The notes under the pieces are model-generated. The model saw nothing but the letters and a program-made list of their open reading frames with translations, was not told the origin of the DNA and ran no database searches. DNA of 44,006 bases from contig CAIVAR010000137.1 in the NCBI GenBank assembly GCA_903904005.1, positions 1 to 44,006 on the forward strand, written 5' to 3'. Position 1 is the first letter of the stretch. Each line of letters begins with the position of its first letter. The position numbers were made by a program, and so were the translations under genes. Source of the DNA: an uncultured Anaeromyxobacter sp. (GTDB lineage Bacteria > Myxococcota > Myxococcia > Myxococcales > Anaeromyxobacteraceae). This document shows, piece by piece, positions 37,024 through 44,006 of the stretch.

Positions 37024-37638
37024 TCAGCGGCTGGCGCCGCCCCGTCGCTGCGGCATCTGCCCCCGGTTGGCCGGCAGCGTCGACGGCGGGGGGTCGGGAG
37101 GAGGCGGCGGCGCGATCGACGGCGGCATGTCCAGCTCGAAATCGTAGGTCGCGCGGGCGCCTGCCGGATACGAGGTGCCCTTCACGACCTGTCCGCGCAG
37201 GGTGCGCTGCGCGCATTCGACGAGCCCCGCGGTCGCGCCGCCCCAGCTCTTCACGCGGGAGTCGAGCACCGCGAAGCCGCCGCCCGACTGGGCCTCGAGA
37301 TCGAGCGTGAGGACGCCCGGGAGCGGGGAGTGGGGAGGGTAGGTGCGGAAGCAATCCACGAGCGGCTCGGAGAGCGCGATCCGGACCGCGCCAGCCGGAA
37401 GCTGGAGGCTCCGCGGGCCGGGCGGGTAGCCCTTCGCGCCCTTGGCCTGGGCCAGGGCCTCGGCGGCGATCACCGCCGGCGAGGAGGCGGACGGGCCCGA
37501 CGGCTGGACCGGTCCCGGCGCCTGGACGGCGGGTGAACCGCCGCCCGTGTCACCCCCGGTGAACAACAGCACCGCCCCGATCGCCACCGCGCCCAGGAAC
37601 AGGATGGCCCCGACGGCCAGGAGCACGAGTTTCTTCAC
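37024..37638 (-). CDS. Membrane-anchored protein with AgmX/PglI C-terminal-like domain
   Basis: A 204-residue protein: one N-terminal membrane helix (about 4-28), a Pro/Ser/Gly-rich linker to about 60, a domain with two cysteines spaced as in the AgmX/PglI C-terminal family (VDCFR... LPGVLTLDLEAQSGGG ... VECAQRTLRG ... YPAGARATYDFEL), and a proline-rich tail. AgmX proteins in myxobacteria are linked to gliding and TonB-like envelope machinery; the match is by pattern only. GTG 37638 overlaps the regulator stop as GTGA, so it belongs to the kinase-regulator operon. Confidence 0.6.
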   Translation of the reverse strand: MKKLVLLAVGAILFLGAVAIGAVLLFTGGDTGGGSPAVQAPGPVQPSGPSASSPAVIAAEALAQAKGAKGYPPGPRSLQLPAGAVRIALSEPLVDCFRTYPPHSPLPGVLTLDLEAQSGGGFAVLDSRVKSWGGATAGLVECAQRTLRGQVVKGTSYPAGARATYDFELDMPPSIAPPPPPDPPPSTLPANRGQMPQRRGGASR

Positions 37639-39005
37639 GGCGAGTCCTTGTCCCTCCCCGCCTCGACCAGGCCGTGGCGGGCCAGCTTCTCGTAGAGGGT
37701 CGACCGGTGCAGCCCGGAGAGCTCGGCCGCCTTCCCCACCGCGCCCCCGGCCTCCCGCAGGAGGTCCTCCAGGTACTTCCGCTCCCAGGCGTCGCGGGCG
37801 GCCCGGTAGCGCCCCTCGCCGGCGATCTCGGCGGCGCGCGCCGCGATCTCGGGGGGGAAGTCGCCGACGGCGAGGTGGTCGCCGCGGGCGAGGAGCAGCG
37901 CCCGCTCGATGGCGTGCTCGAGCTCCCGGATGTTCCCCGGCCAGGAATGGTCGAGCAGCGCACGCATCGCCTCGGCGTCGGGCATGAGCGGCGGCCGCGA
38001 CAGGCGCACGGCGTGCTTCTGCACGAGGTGCTCGATGAGCAGGGGGATGTCCTCGCGCCGCTCCCGCAGCGGGGGCAGCCGCATGGGGACGACCCGGAGC
38101 CGGTACCAGAGATCCTCGCGGAACTTCCCGTCCTGCACCGCCTTCTTGAGATTCTCGTTGGTCGCCGCCACCACCCGCACGTTGGACTTCTGCGGCTTGC
38201 GGCTCCCCACCGGGATGAACTCGCCGTCCTGCAGGACACGGAGCAGCTTGGGCTGGAGCAGCGGGGAGAGCATGCCGATCTCGTCGAGGAAGAGGGTTCC
38301 CCCGTCGGCCTCGGCGAAGAAGCCCTTGCGGGCCTGGTCGGCGCCGGAGAAGGCTCCCTTCTCGTGGCCGAAGAGCTCGCTCTCGGCCAGGTTCTCCGGG
38401 ATGGCGCTCATGTTGAGCGCCAGGTACGGCCCCTTGGCCCGGCCGGAGAGGCCGTGGATGGTCCGGGCCAGCACGTCCTTTCCCGTCCCGCTCTCCCCCT
38501 CGATGAGCACCGGGACGTCGGACGGGGCGATCCGCTCGGCGATGGAGATGATCTCCTTCATCGACTGGCTCTTGCCCACCATCCCCTGCACCGAGAAGGT
38601 GCCGGAGAGCTGCTGCTTGAGCGTCCGGTTCTCGCGGCGGAGGGCGCCGTGCTCGGCGGCGCGCTGCACCATCACCTCGAGCTCCTCCGGATCGAAGGGC
38701 TTCTTGAGATAGTCGAAGGCGCCGGCCTTCATGGCCTCGACCGCCGTCTCCACGGTGGCGAAGGCGGTCATGATGATGACCGGGATCTCCGGGACCTTCA
38801 CCTGGAAGCGCTTCAGCCCCTCGAGGCCGTCGATGCCGGGCATGCGCAGATCGGTGACGATGACGTCGAACTCGGCCCGGTCGAGCGCCGGCAGCGCCTC
38901 GGCGACCGAGGCGAAGTCGTAGACGTCGAAGCTGCGCGACAGGGCGCGCTTCACCATCTGTCGCGCCGAGTCCAGGTCGTCGATGACCATCACGCGCAGC
39001 TTCAT
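37635..39005 (-). CDS. NtrC-family sigma-54-dependent response regulator
   Basis: A 456-residue transcription activator: receiver domain (VIDDLD, phospho-acceptor in VTDLRMPGIDG), AAA+ domain with Walker A GESGTGKD and Walker B GGTLFLDEIG, an arginine-rich RERREDIP segment, and a Fis-type helix-turn-helix (GKAAELSGLHRSTLYEKL). The sigma-54 contact loop reads GAFSGA in place of the usual GAFTGA. Start ATG 39005 and the kinase stop overlap as ATGA, making them a two-component pair. Targets are unknown; the divergent cytochrome gene is a candidate. Confidence 0.92.
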   Translation of the reverse strand: MKLRVMVIDDLDSARQMVKRALSRSFDVYDFASVAEALPALDRAEFDVIVTDLRMPGIDGLEGLKRFQVKVPEIPVIIMTAFATVETAVEAMKAGAFDYLKKPFDPEELEVMVQRAAEHGALRRENRTLKQQLSGTFSVQGMVGKSQSMKEIISIAERIAPSDVPVLIEGESGTGKDVLARTIHGLSGRAKGPYLALNMSAIPENLAESELFGHEKGAFSGADQARKGFFAEADGGTLFLDEIGMLSPLLQPKLLRVLQDGEFIPVGSRKPQKSNVRVVAATNENLKKAVQDGKFREDLWYRLRVVPMRLPPLRERREDIPLLIEHLVQKHAVRLSRPPLMPDAEAMRALLDHSWPGNIRELEHAIERALLLARGDHLAVGDFPPEIAARAAEIAGEGRYRAARDAWERKYLEDLLREAGGAVGKAAELSGLHRSTLYEKLARHGLVEAGRDKDSP

Positions 39006-40468
39006 GCACCCTCCTTCGCACCGGGCAGCCGGATGGAGAACGTGGCCCCCGCCCCGGGCCGGCTCTCCACCGACACGGAGCCGCCGTGGGCCTCGACCGC
39101 CTGCCGCACGATGGCCAGCCCCAGCCCCGTGCCGGTCGCCTTGGTGGTGTAGAACGGCTCGAACACCTTCGCACGGGTCTCTTCGTCCATCCCCGGTCCG
39201 TCGTCCTGGACCTGGAGGACGAGGTCGCTCCCGTCGCGCCCCCCGGAGAACCGCAGGATGCCCCCCCCGTCCGGCTGCATCGCCTGGATGGCGTTCAGCC
39301 CCAGGTTCATGAAGGCCTGCCGGATGAGCTCGGGGTCGATGCGGACCTCCGGCGCGTCGGGGGCGTAGCGCAGCTCCACGGCCACGGAGGCCGACTTGGC
39401 GGCCGGTCCGAGCATCTCCGCCACCTCGCTCATCACCGGCTCGGCCGGCTGGACCTGGGCCTTGCCGGGGCGGGCCCGGGCGAAGACCAGGAAGCGCTCC
39501 ATCAGCCCGGCCGCCCGGACCACCTCCCGCTTCACCGCCTCGAGGTCGGGCCGGTTGGGATGCCCCTCGGGCAGCTCGCGCAGGGCGACGGCGTTGAAGC
39601 CCCGGATCACGTTGAGCGAGTTGCCGAGCTCGTGGGCGAAGCCGGCGGCGATGCCCCCCAGCGTGGCGAGCCGGTCGGCCCGCAGCACCTCGCGCGTCTT
39701 CTGCTCGACCCGCTCGGCCAGCGAGGAGATGAGCTTCTCGTTCTCCTGCCGCCGCTCCTCCAGCCGCAGCGACATCTTGTTCACCGCGGTGACGAGGTCG
39801 GCGAGCTCCCGGTCGGGCGGAACGGGCAGCTGCACCCCGCTCTCCTCGCCGAGCCGCTCCGAGGCCTCCACCACCAGCTCGAGCGGACGGGCGATCCGGA
39901 TGAGGAAGTAGCTCGCCATCATCAGGCCGACCGCGATCCAGAACGCGGCCACCACCGCCACGCCCCAGGCCAGGCGGCGCGCGTCCCCCACCACCTCCTC
40001 GTGCGAGTAGTCGAGGTAGAAGGCCCCGACGAGCTCCCCCTCCCGGAGGATCGGCGCGCTGGCCACGATGCCCTCGGGGTGGATGAGCCGCTGCAGGGCC
40101 TCGAGGGGCGTGGCCCCGCGCTGGAAGATGCTCGGCGGGGCGTGCTCGGGGCAGGGCTCCTTCCGGACGGCGGCGCAGGCCACCAGCCCGCCTCCCCGGT
40201 TGACCACCCAGACCCGGTCGAAGGGGCCGGCCTGGAGAACCCGGCTCGCGAGCGCGTCGAGGGCCTCCTTCCCGCCCGGCTCGATCCCGTCCGGGAGCAG
40301 CCAGCGCGAGGCCGACGGGGCCGACGAGGCGGCGATGGCGCTCCCCTCGCGCAGGAGCAGCTCCTGGCCGCGCAGGAGGTCGCGCCAGAGGGCCACCGCC
40401 GTCACCCCCGTGGTCGCGAAGACCACGAGGCCGGCGATGAGGACGAAGAGCTTGAGGCGGAGGGTCAC
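39002..40468 (-). CDS. NtrB-type membrane sensor histidine kinase
   Basis: A 488-residue kinase: membrane helix about 5-27, a periplasmic sensor of about 130 residues, a second helix about 160-185, HAMP (RIARPLELVVEASERL), HisKA with GFAHELGNSLNVI (phospho-histidine) and ATPase motifs NLGLNAIQAM, DDGPGM and GTGLGLAIV. The sensor domain holds a cysteine-rich stretch (ACAAVRKEPCPEH). The start is a GTG at 40468, only 39 nt from the divergent dodecaheme cytochrome gene. Confidence 0.9.
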   Translation of the reverse strand: MTLRLKLFVLIAGLVVFATTGVTAVALWRDLLRGQELLLREGSAIAASSAPSASRWLLPDGIEPGGKEALDALASRVLQAGPFDRVWVVNRGGGLVACAAVRKEPCPEHAPPSIFQRGATPLEALQRLIHPEGIVASAPILREGELVGAFYLDYSHEEVVGDARRLAWGVAVVAAFWIAVGLMMASYFLIRIARPLELVVEASERLGEESGVQLPVPPDRELADLVTAVNKMSLRLEERRQENEKLISSLAERVEQKTREVLRADRLATLGGIAAGFAHELGNSLNVIRGFNAVALRELPEGHPNRPDLEAVKREVVRAAGLMERFLVFARARPGKAQVQPAEPVMSEVAEMLGPAAKSASVAVELRYAPDAPEVRIDPELIRQAFMNLGLNAIQAMQPDGGGILRFSGGRDGSDLVLQVQDDGPGMDEETRAKVFEPFYTTKATGTGLGLAIVRQAVEAHGGSVSVESRPGAGATFSIRLPGAKEGA

Positions 40469-40507: not shown

Positions 40508-41398
40508 ATGCGCCGGAGGCCCCTTTTTTACGTGGTCGCGGTCGTGGCGGTGCTCCTCTTCCTCGCGGCCGTCGCCGGGATCTGGCGGCTCAAGCGCTTC
40601 GTGGACACCGATCCGCGCCTCTGCGCGCAGTGCCACCGCGCCAGCCCCGAGTTCTCGCTCTGGGCCAAGGGAACCCACAAGAGCGTCTCCTGCCAGCGCT
40701 GCCACCACTCCTCGCCCGAGCAGGGGCTCGCCATGCTGCGCGCCTTCGTGGCCGGCCGCTCGCCGGCGGGGTCGAAGGCCCACGCGCCGGTGGAGATCGG
40801 CTCCTGCGCCTCCTGCCACCTCTCCCACGACGGAAACTGGCCCCAGGTGGGCAATTCCCGCGGCCACCGGATCCACTTCGAAGAGAAGGGGATCGCCTGC
40901 GTCACCTGCCACGCCGAGGGGATGCACGGCTTCCACCCGCTCACCGAGAGCTGCCGGAAGTGCCACGGCGAGCACACCGTCCGGGCGCAGGGCATGGCCA
41001 GGCTCCACTGCTTCGTCTGCCACGACTTCCTCTCCCCCGACCCCGGCCTGCTCCCCACCCGGCGGGACTGCCTGCGCTGCCACCGTGCCGAGGGGGTCCA
41101 TCCGGCCCGCTTCTCCGACGCCGCGCCCATGCAGTTCGACTGCGGCACCTGCCACAAGCCCCACGCCGCCACGCCGGCCGAGGCCCTCCACCGCTGCACC
41201 GACTGCCACGTGATGGCCGGGACGGCCGGGCTGCACGCCCGCCACGGCAAGGAGCGCTGCACCGCCTGCCACGGCCCCCACCTCTGGGTGGCCGGCGAGG
41301 CCGACTGCCTGCGCTGCCACGACGGGGCCGGGAAGCACGCCGCGAAAAAGGGCTGCGTCTCCTGCCATTCCTTCCGTGCGGGGCCAGCGCGGAAGTAG
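40508..41398 (+). CDS. Membrane-anchored dodecaheme c-type cytochrome (NapC/NirT-like N-terminus)
   Basis: A 296-residue cytochrome with an uncleaved N-terminal helix (about 6-26) and twelve CXXCH haem sites beginning at C39, C62, C100, C131, C149, C168, C188, C212, C230, C251, C267 and C283, about one haem per 22 residues. The first part (LCAQCHRASPEFSLWAKGTHKSVSCQRCHH) resembles NapC/NirT quinol dehydrogenases, which pass electrons from membrane quinol to periplasmic partners. The remainder looks like a nanowire-style haem chain. Eleven further histidines could serve as sixth ligands. It lies divergent to a two-component system and close to a CbcL-like gene. Confidence 0.93.
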   Translation: MRRRPLFYVVAVVAVLLFLAAVAGIWRLKRFVDTDPRLCAQCHRASPEFSLWAKGTHKSVSCQRCHHSSPEQGLAMLRAFVAGRSPAGSKAHAPVEIGSCASCHLSHDGNWPQVGNSRGHRIHFEEKGIACVTCHAEGMHGFHPLTESCRKCHGEHTVRAQGMARLHCFVCHDFLSPDPGLLPTRRDCLRCHRAEGVHPARFSDAAPMQFDCGTCHKPHAATPAEALHRCTDCHVMAGTAGLHARHGKERCTACHGPHLWVAGEADCLRCHDGAGKHAAKKGCVSCHSFRAGPARK

Positions 41399-41507
41399 AC
41401 GAAGCCGGTCGACGTCCCGGCTCGCGCATTTCATGGCGCCCTGCGTCTTGACGGGATGTGCGCGATTCCCGCACCTTCCGGGAGCGTTCCCACCGGAGGT
41501 CTCCCAC

Positions 41508-41828
41508 ATGCGTTTCATGGCACTGATCGTGACCCTCGCATCCTGGCTCATGATCTCGACCTTCGCCTTCCCGCAGAGCGGCGAGTCGTTCCTGCTGGCC
41601 TGGATCGTGGCCCTGCTGGTGTCGGGGATCTCGATCGCGTCGCCGGGCCGCATGAACCTGCGGCTCATCATCTCCGGACTGGCCTTCATCCTCTTCTGGG
41701 CCGCCATCCTGCTCCCCGACGTCTCCTTCGCCGCCCGGGTGAGCAACGGCACCGTGGGCGCGCTGCTCTTCGCGCTCGGCATCGTCCCCTCGCCGGTCCG
41801 GCGCGACGACGCGAAGTCGCGGGCGTAG
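41508..41828 (+). CDS. Small polytopic membrane protein (SPW-repeat-like)
   Basis: A 106-residue protein with about four hydrophobic segments and a short charged tail. GGAGG lies 8-12 nt before ATG 41508, which supports this start over the upstream in-frame extension. The WLMISTFAF and ILFWAAILLP stretches loosely recall SPW-repeat membrane proteins; no function follows. It is 109 nt after the dodecaheme gene and may be co-transcribed. Confidence 0.68.
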   Translation: MRFMALIVTLASWLMISTFAFPQSGESFLLAWIVALLVSGISIASPGRMNLRLIISGLAFILFWAAILLPDVSFAARVSNGTVGALLFALGIVPSPVRRDDAKSRA

Positions 41829-41856
41829 GGGCCCGACGCAACTCGACCCCGGCCGC

Positions 41857-41881
41857 GCCCCGGTGAGGGGACGACCGGGGC
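41857..41881. terminator. Possible bidirectional terminator between convergent genes
   Basis: GCCCCGGT (41857-41864) pairs perfectly with ACCGGGGC (41874-41881) around a 9-nt loop, in the 84-nt gap between the convergent small membrane protein and CbcL-like genes. There is no T-tract, so factor-independent termination would be weak. Confidence 0.35.
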
Positions 41882-41912
41882 CGAAGGGCCCTTCCGGCAG
41901 CAGGGACCGCGC

Positions 41913-43607
41913 CTACGGGTCCTGCGGGTCCTTCTTCTTCACGAGCTCCTCGTACTGTCCACGGTGCTCCTCCTCGAGCATCGCGTGGCTCATCTTGCCG
42001 GTGAGCCAGACCCAGTTCATCGGGAAGATCGAGGGCTTCAGGTGCGCGTTGTAGAAGTGCACCACGAAGAGGAAGAGCAGCGCGAGCGTCGCCTCCTCGC
42101 CGTGGATGATCTGGGCCGAGGTGAGCACCCAGTGCGGCGCCCACTTGGCGAAGAAGACCGGGAACCAGAGCACGAAGCCGGTGCCGACCATCATGATCAT
42201 GCCCCAGAACACCGCCCAGTAATCGAACTTCTCCAGGTAGCTGTACTTCCCGTAGGCGGGGCGCTCGCCGAAGCCGAGCATGTAGCGGATGTTGTCGCGG
42301 ATCTCGCCGACGTCGCGCGGGCCGGGCAGCATCGAGAAGGCGAGCGTCCGCCGCGCCCCGTGCAGCACGAGGTAGAGGATGTGGTACGCGCCCGAGATGA
42401 TGATCATCACGGCGGCGATGCGGTGGAGCAGCGCCGCGCCGTGCGGACCGCCGAAGAGGGCCAGGATCTTGCGCGAGGTCTCGATGGCCTCCGGGGAGCC
42501 GGCGCCGCGCAGCGGCCAGCCGGTGACGCCGAGCAGGATCACGCCGCTGAGCATCATCCAGTGCTGGGCGCGCTGGTGGAGGTCGAAGCGCTGCACGAAC
42601 TCCGCCTCCTTGAGCGGATCGTGTCCGTGCCCGGCCTTCTTCATGCGGATCTTGTGGCGAACCTCGGCGAAGAGGTCGAGGGCCACGTGGCCGGCGAAGA
42701 AGATCAGGGTGAGCGCCGCGAGCCACGAGAAGACCACGTGGAGGAAGTGCGGGATCTTGCTCTCGCTGTGCGCGGGATCGTGGTGGGCGATGAGCTTGGC
42801 GAAGTTCTCGTTCGCCCCCTCGTGGCAGCGGCCGCAGGTCTGCGCGCGGTGGGTGCCGGCGACGGGGGAGGCCGGGTCGGTCTTGGCCAGGATCTTGTGG
42901 GCGTTCGGGTGGAGCACACCCTTCGCGTCCTTCTCGGCCACGCCGTGGCAGTCGGCGCAGGCCGGGGCGCGCGCCGATCCGGTGTTGACGAGCCGGCCGT
43001 GGATCGAGTCGTGGAAGGTGACGACGACGTCGCCCTTGAGCCCGGCCTTCTCGGCGAAGACCGGGTCGGCGTGGCACTTCTCGCAGCGCTCGGAGATGGC
43101 GCGCGCGCCGGGGGAGAACTTCACGCCGGCCGCGGCGGGGGCGGCCACCGGCTTCACGATCTCGTGGACCGCGCCGTGGCAGCTCGCGCAGGTGGGGCCG
43201 GCCACCTTGGCGTCGCCCTTCATCCACTTTCCGTGGACGGAGGCGGCGAGCTGCTCGACCACCTCGGAGTGGCAGTTCCCGCAGGCCAGGTAGGCGCGCG
43301 GGGCGGTGCTCGCCTTGAGCGCCTCGAAGCGGGCCATCGTCGCGGCGTCGGCGCCCTCGAGGGCGGGGAGCTCGTGCGGGCCGGGCGCCTGGTAGCCGGC
43401 GTGGCAATCGGTGCAGCCGAAGGTGCCGTGGACCGACTTCCCGAACTGGGCAGGGCGGACGCCGGACTCGCCGGGCTTCGACGCCACGTGGCAGTCGAGG
43501 CAGGCCTGGTTGGGGTCGGACGCGGCCGCCTGGGCGGGGGCGTCGGCCGCGGCGGCGGCCATCGGGAACGTCAGGAGCAGCGACAGGAGGAGGGTAGGTA
43601 CGCGCAT
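41913..43607 (-). CDS. CbcL-like fusion: seven-heme cytochrome c plus diheme cytochrome b
   Basis: A 564-residue protein. A signal peptide (about 22 residues) is followed by a periplasmic domain with seven CXXCH sites starting at C36, C65, C109, C140, C175, C217 and C258. After a membrane helix near 290-312 comes a HydC/FdnI-type cytochrome b domain with about four more helices and candidate haem-b histidines in FDLHQRAQHW, ALLHRI, GAYHILYLVLHG and VVHFYNAH. The order and b domain match Geobacter CbcL, an inner-membrane menaquinol oxidoreductase used for low-potential extracellular acceptors, which has nine c-haems. ATG 43607 is chosen for the signal peptide; upstream sequence is AT-rich (43660-43690). 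Confidence 0.9.
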   Translation of the reverse strand: MRVPTLLLSLLLTFPMAAAAADAPAQAAASDPNQACLDCHVASKPGESGVRPAQFGKSVHGTFGCTDCHAGYQAPGPHELPALEGADAATMARFEALKASTAPRAYLACGNCHSEVVEQLAASVHGKWMKGDAKVAGPTCASCHGAVHEIVKPVAAPAAAGVKFSPGARAISERCEKCHADPVFAEKAGLKGDVVVTFHDSIHGRLVNTGSARAPACADCHGVAEKDAKGVLHPNAHKILAKTDPASPVAGTHRAQTCGRCHEGANENFAKLIAHHDPAHSESKIPHFLHVVFSWLAALTLIFFAGHVALDLFAEVRHKIRMKKAGHGHDPLKEAEFVQRFDLHQRAQHWMMLSGVILLGVTGWPLRGAGSPEAIETSRKILALFGGPHGAALLHRIAAVMIIISGAYHILYLVLHGARRTLAFSMLPGPRDVGEIRDNIRYMLGFGERPAYGKYSYLEKFDYWAVFWGMIMMVGTGFVLWFPVFFAKWAPHWVLTSAQIIHGEEATLALLFLFVVHFYNAHLKPSIFPMNWVWLTGKMSHAMLEEEHRGQYEELVKKKDPQDP

Positions 43608-43747
43608 ATGGTCCGGTGGGAGGCCCCGTGCAGGGGGTGTGCCTGAGCGGCGCAGGATAAGGGGTTGTATTTCAAAAGCATTGCGCTGGATCAGATCCGG
43701 GGTCGGCGCACGGATTGCGTTTACGGGGACGGGGCGCAAAAGGAAAT

Positions 43748-43801: not shown

Positions 43802-44006
43802 CTAGGCCTTCGTCGCCTCGGTGGCCGGCTTGGCGGGGGCGGCGGTGAGGACGCCGACCGCGGCACCGGCGACGGCGCCACCGACCGCGAAGAGGGAGCC
43901 GACGCCGAGGGCGCCCATGACCATGCCGAAGACGATGAGGGCGCGGACGAAGAAGGTGGGCTGGACGGGGGTGCCGAAGATGCCGCCGGCGAGGAGGACG
44001 CCCGCG
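43802..44006 (-). CDS. C-terminal part of a small hydrophobic membrane protein (cut by window edge)
   Basis: The open frame continues past the right edge; 67 residues are visible before the TAG. They contain two hydrophobic segments separated by GTPVQPTFFVRALI, then a short Ala/Pro/Lys tail (APAKPATEATKA). The arrangement loosely recalls a c/K-type ATPase proteolipid, but no membrane glutamate is visible in the expected second helix, so I leave it unnamed. Its own hairpin terminator follows. Confidence 0.6.
   Translation of the reverse strand, partial: AGVLLAGGIFGTPVQPTFFVRALIVFGMVMGALGVGSLFAVGGAVAGAAVGVLTAAPAKPATEATKA

Follow-up and report, generated by a model that had tools for sequence, protein, structure and literature searches.

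Two multihaem cytochrome genes in a 44,006-nucleotide stretch of Anaeromyxobacter DNA (the window; contig C137 of a 4.56-Mb genome, G000) probably encode the two halves of one inner-membrane quinone:periplasm complex, which has its own regulator and would represent a myxobacterial variant of the Cbc5 (CbcABCDE) type of Geobacter. We call the gene for the 12-haem cytochrome A and the gene for the fusion of a 7-haem c domain with a cytochrome b domain B. Together with a histidine kinase (HK), a response regulator (RR) and a small membrane protein (S) they belong to a larger conserved locus with the order S - B - A - HK - RR, in which S is not always present. The original prediction, made from the letters of the window alone, had described A and B as a two-gene electron-transfer module. 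The side-by-side position of a 12-haem cytochrome and a 7-haem cytochrome with a diheme b domain was confirmed by the CxxCH counts, a PF01292 match and conservation throughout the family, but the kinase, the sigma-54 regulator and S had been overlooked. Anaeromyxobacter lives in soil and reduces metals, uranium and organohalides, but the points at which electrons enter these pathways at its inner membrane are poorly defined. A locus that is near-universal in the family and has its own regulator thus offers a bounded five-gene target for the study of acceptor use and its control.

Conservation and inversion of the locus

The loci were compared by gene calling and tblastn over 30 loci, with 24 Anaeromyxobacteraceae genomes as the family sample. 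A and B were present in 23 of these genomes, G011 being without either. They were adjacent in 22 of the 24 (in G021 a contig end cuts B), and in G013 each of them lies at a contig end, which is compatible with adjacency. Wherever the contig extends far enough, in all 20 such family genomes read, HK adjoins A, and 13 loci have S upstream of B. In the genera g2, g5 and g6, (S)-B-A-HK-RR is located on one strand. A and HK as well as HK and RR often overlap by 4 bp in the collinear genera, and the 4-bp overlap of HK and RR is also found in the window. The locus is operon-like in most genomes.

In the genus of the window (g1), in g3 and g4 and in G107, which belongs to another family, A alone is inverted, still located between B and HK. 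A tree of HK and RR shows the inverted state on several separate branches, with weak support for some of the deep ones. Because of this scatter, A has probably been flipped more than once, unless an early flip was later reversed, and it stayed within the locus throughout. The persistent linkage through these inversions argues most strongly for a joint function of A, B and the two-component system. Since A and B remain a single unit beside a dedicated two-component system, they look like partners and not like the two alternative quinol oxidases proposed originally. The convergent orientation described for the pair holds in the window, but the genes are separated by a 106-aa membrane open reading frame. 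This reading frame was found only in the genus of the window, with about 90% identity there, and domain searches with it gave no family match.

A search for the same neighbourhood in other Myxococcota, suggested as a check on the original prediction, recovered it not only in the 22 family genomes but also in three genomes outside the family (G034, G163 and G107). In G034 and G163, which represent other orders of the phylum, the genes are arranged collinearly; in G034 a 3-haem gene separates B from A. In a profile search over the phylum, four genomes outside the family gave strong homologues over the full length. Named relatives with 82-85% identity to A come from metagenome genomes of Anaeromyxobacteraceae; among the more distant ones are those of Anaeromyxobacter oryzae, A. 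soli, A. terrae and strain PSR-1. A contig scan with A as query, in which strict patterns were used, yielded only Anaeromyxobacteraceae-type loci, which does not imply absence elsewhere. Relatives of B were not found in viral contigs and plasmids; the plasmid search with A gave only weak cytochrome matches, on two plasmids. A literature search, incomplete in its coverage of the relevant papers, found no paper on the B-A-HK-RR locus.

The two cytochromes

Every CxxCH motif in the six frames of the window falls into one of two reading frames, 12 in A and seven in B with none elsewhere, and therefore the pattern is not due to chance. Pfam multihaem cytochrome domains were found in both proteins, which are conserved end to end within the family (51-89% identity).

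B, with the conserved ATG at 43607 as its start, has 564 aa; the open reading frame can be extended to 43778. A signal peptide and seven CxxCH motifs are followed by a helical membrane part that matches PF01292 (b561/FdnI type, E 2e-9). The AlphaFold model, based on a 22-sequence alignment, has a pTM of 0.64 and shows five membrane helices in addition to the signal peptide. Its membrane part matches E. coli FdnI (1kqf_C) over 206 residues with Z 15.4, a clear margin over the next family, and Foldseek gave FdnI with an E value of 1.9e-4 and otherwise only weak NrfA-type matches. In the HMMER alignment, H349, H395, H502 and H517 of B correspond to H18, H57, H155 and H169 of FdnI, the established haem ligands of that protein, and they are invariant in 22 of 22 sequences. 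The haem ligands of the b domain had been named beforehand as a point on which the prediction could fail; all four positions are kept, so that the prediction is not refuted on this point, the comparison being with FdnI and not with CbcL. The c part contains as many invariant spare histidines as c haems, namely seven (60, 125, 148, 203, 275, 287 and 290), of which H287 and H290 lie at the membrane border, where the first membrane helix begins. B is likely to be the quinone-reactive partner of the pair. Three more histidines of the membrane domain (H307, H344 and H409) are also invariant and have no FdnI ligand counterpart; they might conceivably belong to a third b haem or to a quinone site.

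A has 296 aa, 12 CxxCH motifs and 24 cysteines, all of them inside the motifs. With 13 conserved spare histidines for its 12 haems and no free cysteine, it fits a pure bis-His electron wire without a catalytic site. The A homologues of genus g4 (L010, L016) stop early and have 10 haem motifs, the final two being missing.

The original prediction had seen in A a NapC/ImcH-like quinol dehydrogenase with its own 12-haem wire and in B a CbcL, the two being alternative quinol oxidases for acceptors of different potential. We regard this as unlikely. A single hydrophobic helix at residues ~5-32 directly before haem 1 is indeed an anchor feature of the NapC family, and this anchor with the following haem pair is weakly NrfH-like, as seen in matches to TIGR03153 (E 2e-7 over residues 10-67) and to the 2j7a profile. 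The TIGR03153 match, however, reaches 31.1 bits and is far below the cut-off of 134.2 bits, and PF03264 gave no match to A at E<=1; a PF03264 search of the own genome returned four loci elsewhere, the A locus not among them. A methionine two residues after the first CxxCH, the haem-1 ligand of NrfH (aligned sequence CTSCHIM), was found in none of 22 A sequences. ImcH has three transmembrane helices, one CX3CH and 5-9 CX2CH motifs (PMC6295460), whereas A has one helix, no CX3CH and 12 CX2CH; an identity as ImcH was thus rejected on motif and helix count. The conservation of A and B as one linked unit likewise argues against alternative oxidases. A diverged 11-haem homologue of A in G163 does pass PF03264 (31.3 bits), and for this reason a remote common origin of the anchor region with the NapC family is possible. 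Shared ancestry of the anchor would not make A a quinol dehydrogenase.

Two other proteins with PF03264 regions were noticed. A 17-haem protein of G107 (L095:4671-6374) combines an A-related stretch with a near-threshold PF03264 region in the middle of the protein and is possibly a fusion. A NapC/NirT-family protein of the own genome (L107:7793-9169, G000:C124) has an atypical first motif, CAAACH, and its polypeptide also includes SoxA/TsdA- and cbb3-type cytochrome c domains; given this fusion, an ImcH identity was not assigned despite the CX3CH-type first motif.

Table 1. Features of the locus in the window
Feature	Position	Strand	Evidence or remark
S, ~100-aa membrane protein, truncated by the window/contig end to its 3' part	43802..44006	-	75% identity to a ~102-aa gene upstream of B in Anaeromyxobacter
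Candidate sigma-54 (-24/-12) promoter AGGCACACCCCCTGCA	43629..43644	-	37 bp before B
B, signal peptide, 7-haem c domain and FdnI-like diheme cytochrome b domain (CbcA-CbcB-like fusion)	41913..43607	-	motifs, Pfam, alignment, model
B, 7-haem periplasmic domain, residues 36-275	42783..43502	-	
B, membrane domain, residues 285-564, five predicted helices	41916..42755	-	1kqf_C, Z 15.4 over 206 residues
106-aa membrane open reading frame between A and B	41508..41828	+	present only in the genus of the window
A, 12-haem c-type cytochrome with N-terminal membrane anchor	40508..41398	+	
A, predicted N-terminal membrane helix, residues 3-34	40514..40609	+	
HK, membrane histidine kinase (HAMP-HisKA-HATPase), divergent from A in the window	39002..40468	-	
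HK, periplasmic cysteine pair C98-x7-C106	40151..40177	-	
RR, NtrC-type sigma-54 response regulator (receiver, AAA+ with GAFSGA, Fis helix-turn-helix)	37635..39005	-	

Regulation and the route of the electrons

RR contains PF00072, PF00158 and PF02954 and has the Walker A motif and the GAF[ST]GA loop (GAFSGA) of a sigma-54 activator; rpoN is encoded in the own genome. A GG-N10-GC site resembling a -24/-12 promoter precedes B by 31-43 bp in 18 of 22 genomes, and 8 of 500 shuffles were as good as the site in the window. Possible sigma-54 sites before S were noticed by eye and are not claimed here. The periplasmic pair of cysteines in HK (C-x(7-8)-C) is conserved in all 24 family-type kinase sequences read, in which some genomes are counted twice, and is not present in the kinases of the same arrangement in G034 and G163.

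We propose that electrons from menaquinol would enter B through the diheme b domain, cross the bis-His haems at the membrane border and reach the 7-haem periplasmic domain. The c domain of B would then pass them, presumably by direct contact, to A, the membrane-anchored 12-haem wire, and from A they might flow to periplasmic or to outer-membrane or surface cytochromes. HK would sense a periplasmic, probably redox, signal and act on RR, which with sigma-54 would activate B and the other genes of the locus whenever the acceptor route is needed.

Several observations weigh against a single complex of the Cbc5 type under its own control. Where A is inverted, it cannot be on the transcript of B. 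The sigma-54 site lies very near the start codon of B, with a predicted leader of only ~6-17 nt, and because of this closeness it is held as a candidate only. A CbcD-like monohaem gene was not seen beside B and A in the window or in relatives, and neither was an acceptor or an outer-membrane partner linked to the locus. In addition, the structure model of A (AlphaFold, haems not included) is poor (pLDDT 48.5) and was left out of the fold search.

The statement that the window contains no terminal reductase or outer-membrane conduit was correct. Elsewhere in the own genome, C57 encodes a decahaem MtrC/MtrF-like lipoprotein and C37 a cytochrome with 42 haems (L128:1517-4582 and L129:9753-13043). 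A search of the own genome for MtrB (PF11854) found nothing, nor did one with the putative porin of G163, a query without a positive control. In G163 itself, the diverged 11-haem homologue of A (L098, G163:C5 237000-253000, 2661-12393) is flanked on one side by NrfD, iron-sulfur and 4-haem genes and on the other by a porin-cytochrome-like set comprising a 13-haem cytochrome, a 431-aa protein without a family match and an 11-haem lipoprotein. The whole arrangement looks like an inner-to-outer-membrane path, a gene context that supports the A family as a periplasmic link.

Contig C11 of the own genome (L106, 28000-46000; 8215-13462) encodes a separate 239-aa b-type cytochrome and a 9-haem cytochrome, which are distantly related to B. 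Their neighbours are NrfD, iron-sulfur, triheme c7 and lipoyl/GCV_H-like genes, with kinases and regulators nearby, and the set is a candidate for another quinone-cytochrome complex. The cell would thus have further entry points, so that the A-B module is probably specialised and conditionally expressed.

It might also be that A and B serve mainly as the sensing arm of HK and RR, in which case the electron flow would report the redox state of the quinone pool or periplasm to a kinase controlling sigma-54-dependent respiratory genes elsewhere. The strict linkage to HK and RR, the 4-bp overlaps of A and HK, the conserved cysteine pair of the kinase and the lack of a linked reductase or conduit are in line with such a function. 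We nevertheless think it quite unlikely, since 19 c haems would be costly for a sensor, B has the architecture of a respiratory quinone oxidoreductase, the cysteine pair is not found in the G034 and G163 kinases, and the candidate sigma-54 site before B suggests that the locus itself is the target. The reverse route, from an extracellular or periplasmic donor through A and B to menaquinone, has little probability. CbcL/MtoC homologues do occur in Fe(II) oxidisers (PMC6295460), and reverse operation of CbcBA has been proposed for syntrophic sulfate reducers (PMC10553843), but the locus itself gives no hint of an external electron donor.

A quinone:periplasm complex with its own regulator could be taken one step further. 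In such a self-regulated Myxococcota module, electron flow through a fused CbcA-CbcB-like quinone oxidoreductase and its 12-haem wire would be read by the module's own cysteine-pair kinase, coupling the redox state of the acceptor to sigma-54 control of the same entry point. We put this idea forward only tentatively.

Comparison with known electron-entry systems

With its anchor and the weakly NrfH-like haem pair directly behind it, A recalls the ImcH, CymA and NapC-NirT-NrfH proteins, from which it differs in having 12 haems and one helix and in lacking the PF03264 match, the CX3CH motif and the haem-1 methionine. The membrane domain of B shares the fold and the four haem-ligand positions of FdnI, the cytochrome b556 of E. 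coli formate dehydrogenase-N. Unlike FdnI, B carries one additional helix at the N-terminus, and a covalently attached multihaem domain takes the place of the iron-sulfur partner.

The CbcL/MtrH/MtoC class is defined by an N-terminal multihaem domain with 3-23 CX2CH motifs and a C-terminal FdnI/HydC-like b domain (PMC6295460), and CbcL itself has nine haems and six helices (PMC9129911). As a single polypeptide with seven CX2CH motifs and an FdnI-like diheme b domain, B shows both features, and by architecture it would fit this class equally well. It differs from CbcL in its seven haems and in its five modelled helices (most members have six, a few 4-5), and from the class in that a 12-haem cytochrome and a two-component system accompany it. 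The description of B as a CbcL-like c/b fusion was right about the CbcL/FdnI-type architecture, but Cbc5 appears to be the better match in Geobacter.

By architecture and gene order, and not by homology, Cbc5 would be the closest known system to the B-A locus. Joshi et al. are said to have reported in 2021 that cbcBA depends on the sigma-54 activator BccR, and we take GSU0592 to be omcQ/cbcC. The Geobacter genes are arranged as cbcA (7-haem c), cbcB (cytochrome b) and cbcC (11 haems in G. metallireducens) (PMC10470525); the cluster also contains cbcD and cbcE, and cbcC is omcQ (PMC11434368). GSU0592 has 12 motifs (PMC2825233), and CbcBA is active near -0.2 V (PMC12307469). B followed by A reproduces the cbcA-cbcB-cbcC order and the haem numbers, with A inverted in the window, and both systems would transfer electrons between the inner-membrane quinone pool and the periplasm. 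In contrast to Cbc5, the 7-haem and b parts are fused to one polypeptide in B, HK and an NtrC-type RR are directly attached to the locus, and A is inverted in some lineages. Cbc5 includes the membrane protein CbcE; in the B-A locus a small membrane protein, S, is encoded upstream of B. A gene for the monohaem CbcD is missing from the B-A locus, only G034 having a 3-haem gene between B and A; because of this, we describe the locus as working like Cbc5 and do not file it as a member. The resemblance suggests that the Cbc5-type arrangement of Geobacter extends, in a fused form, to the myxobacteria.

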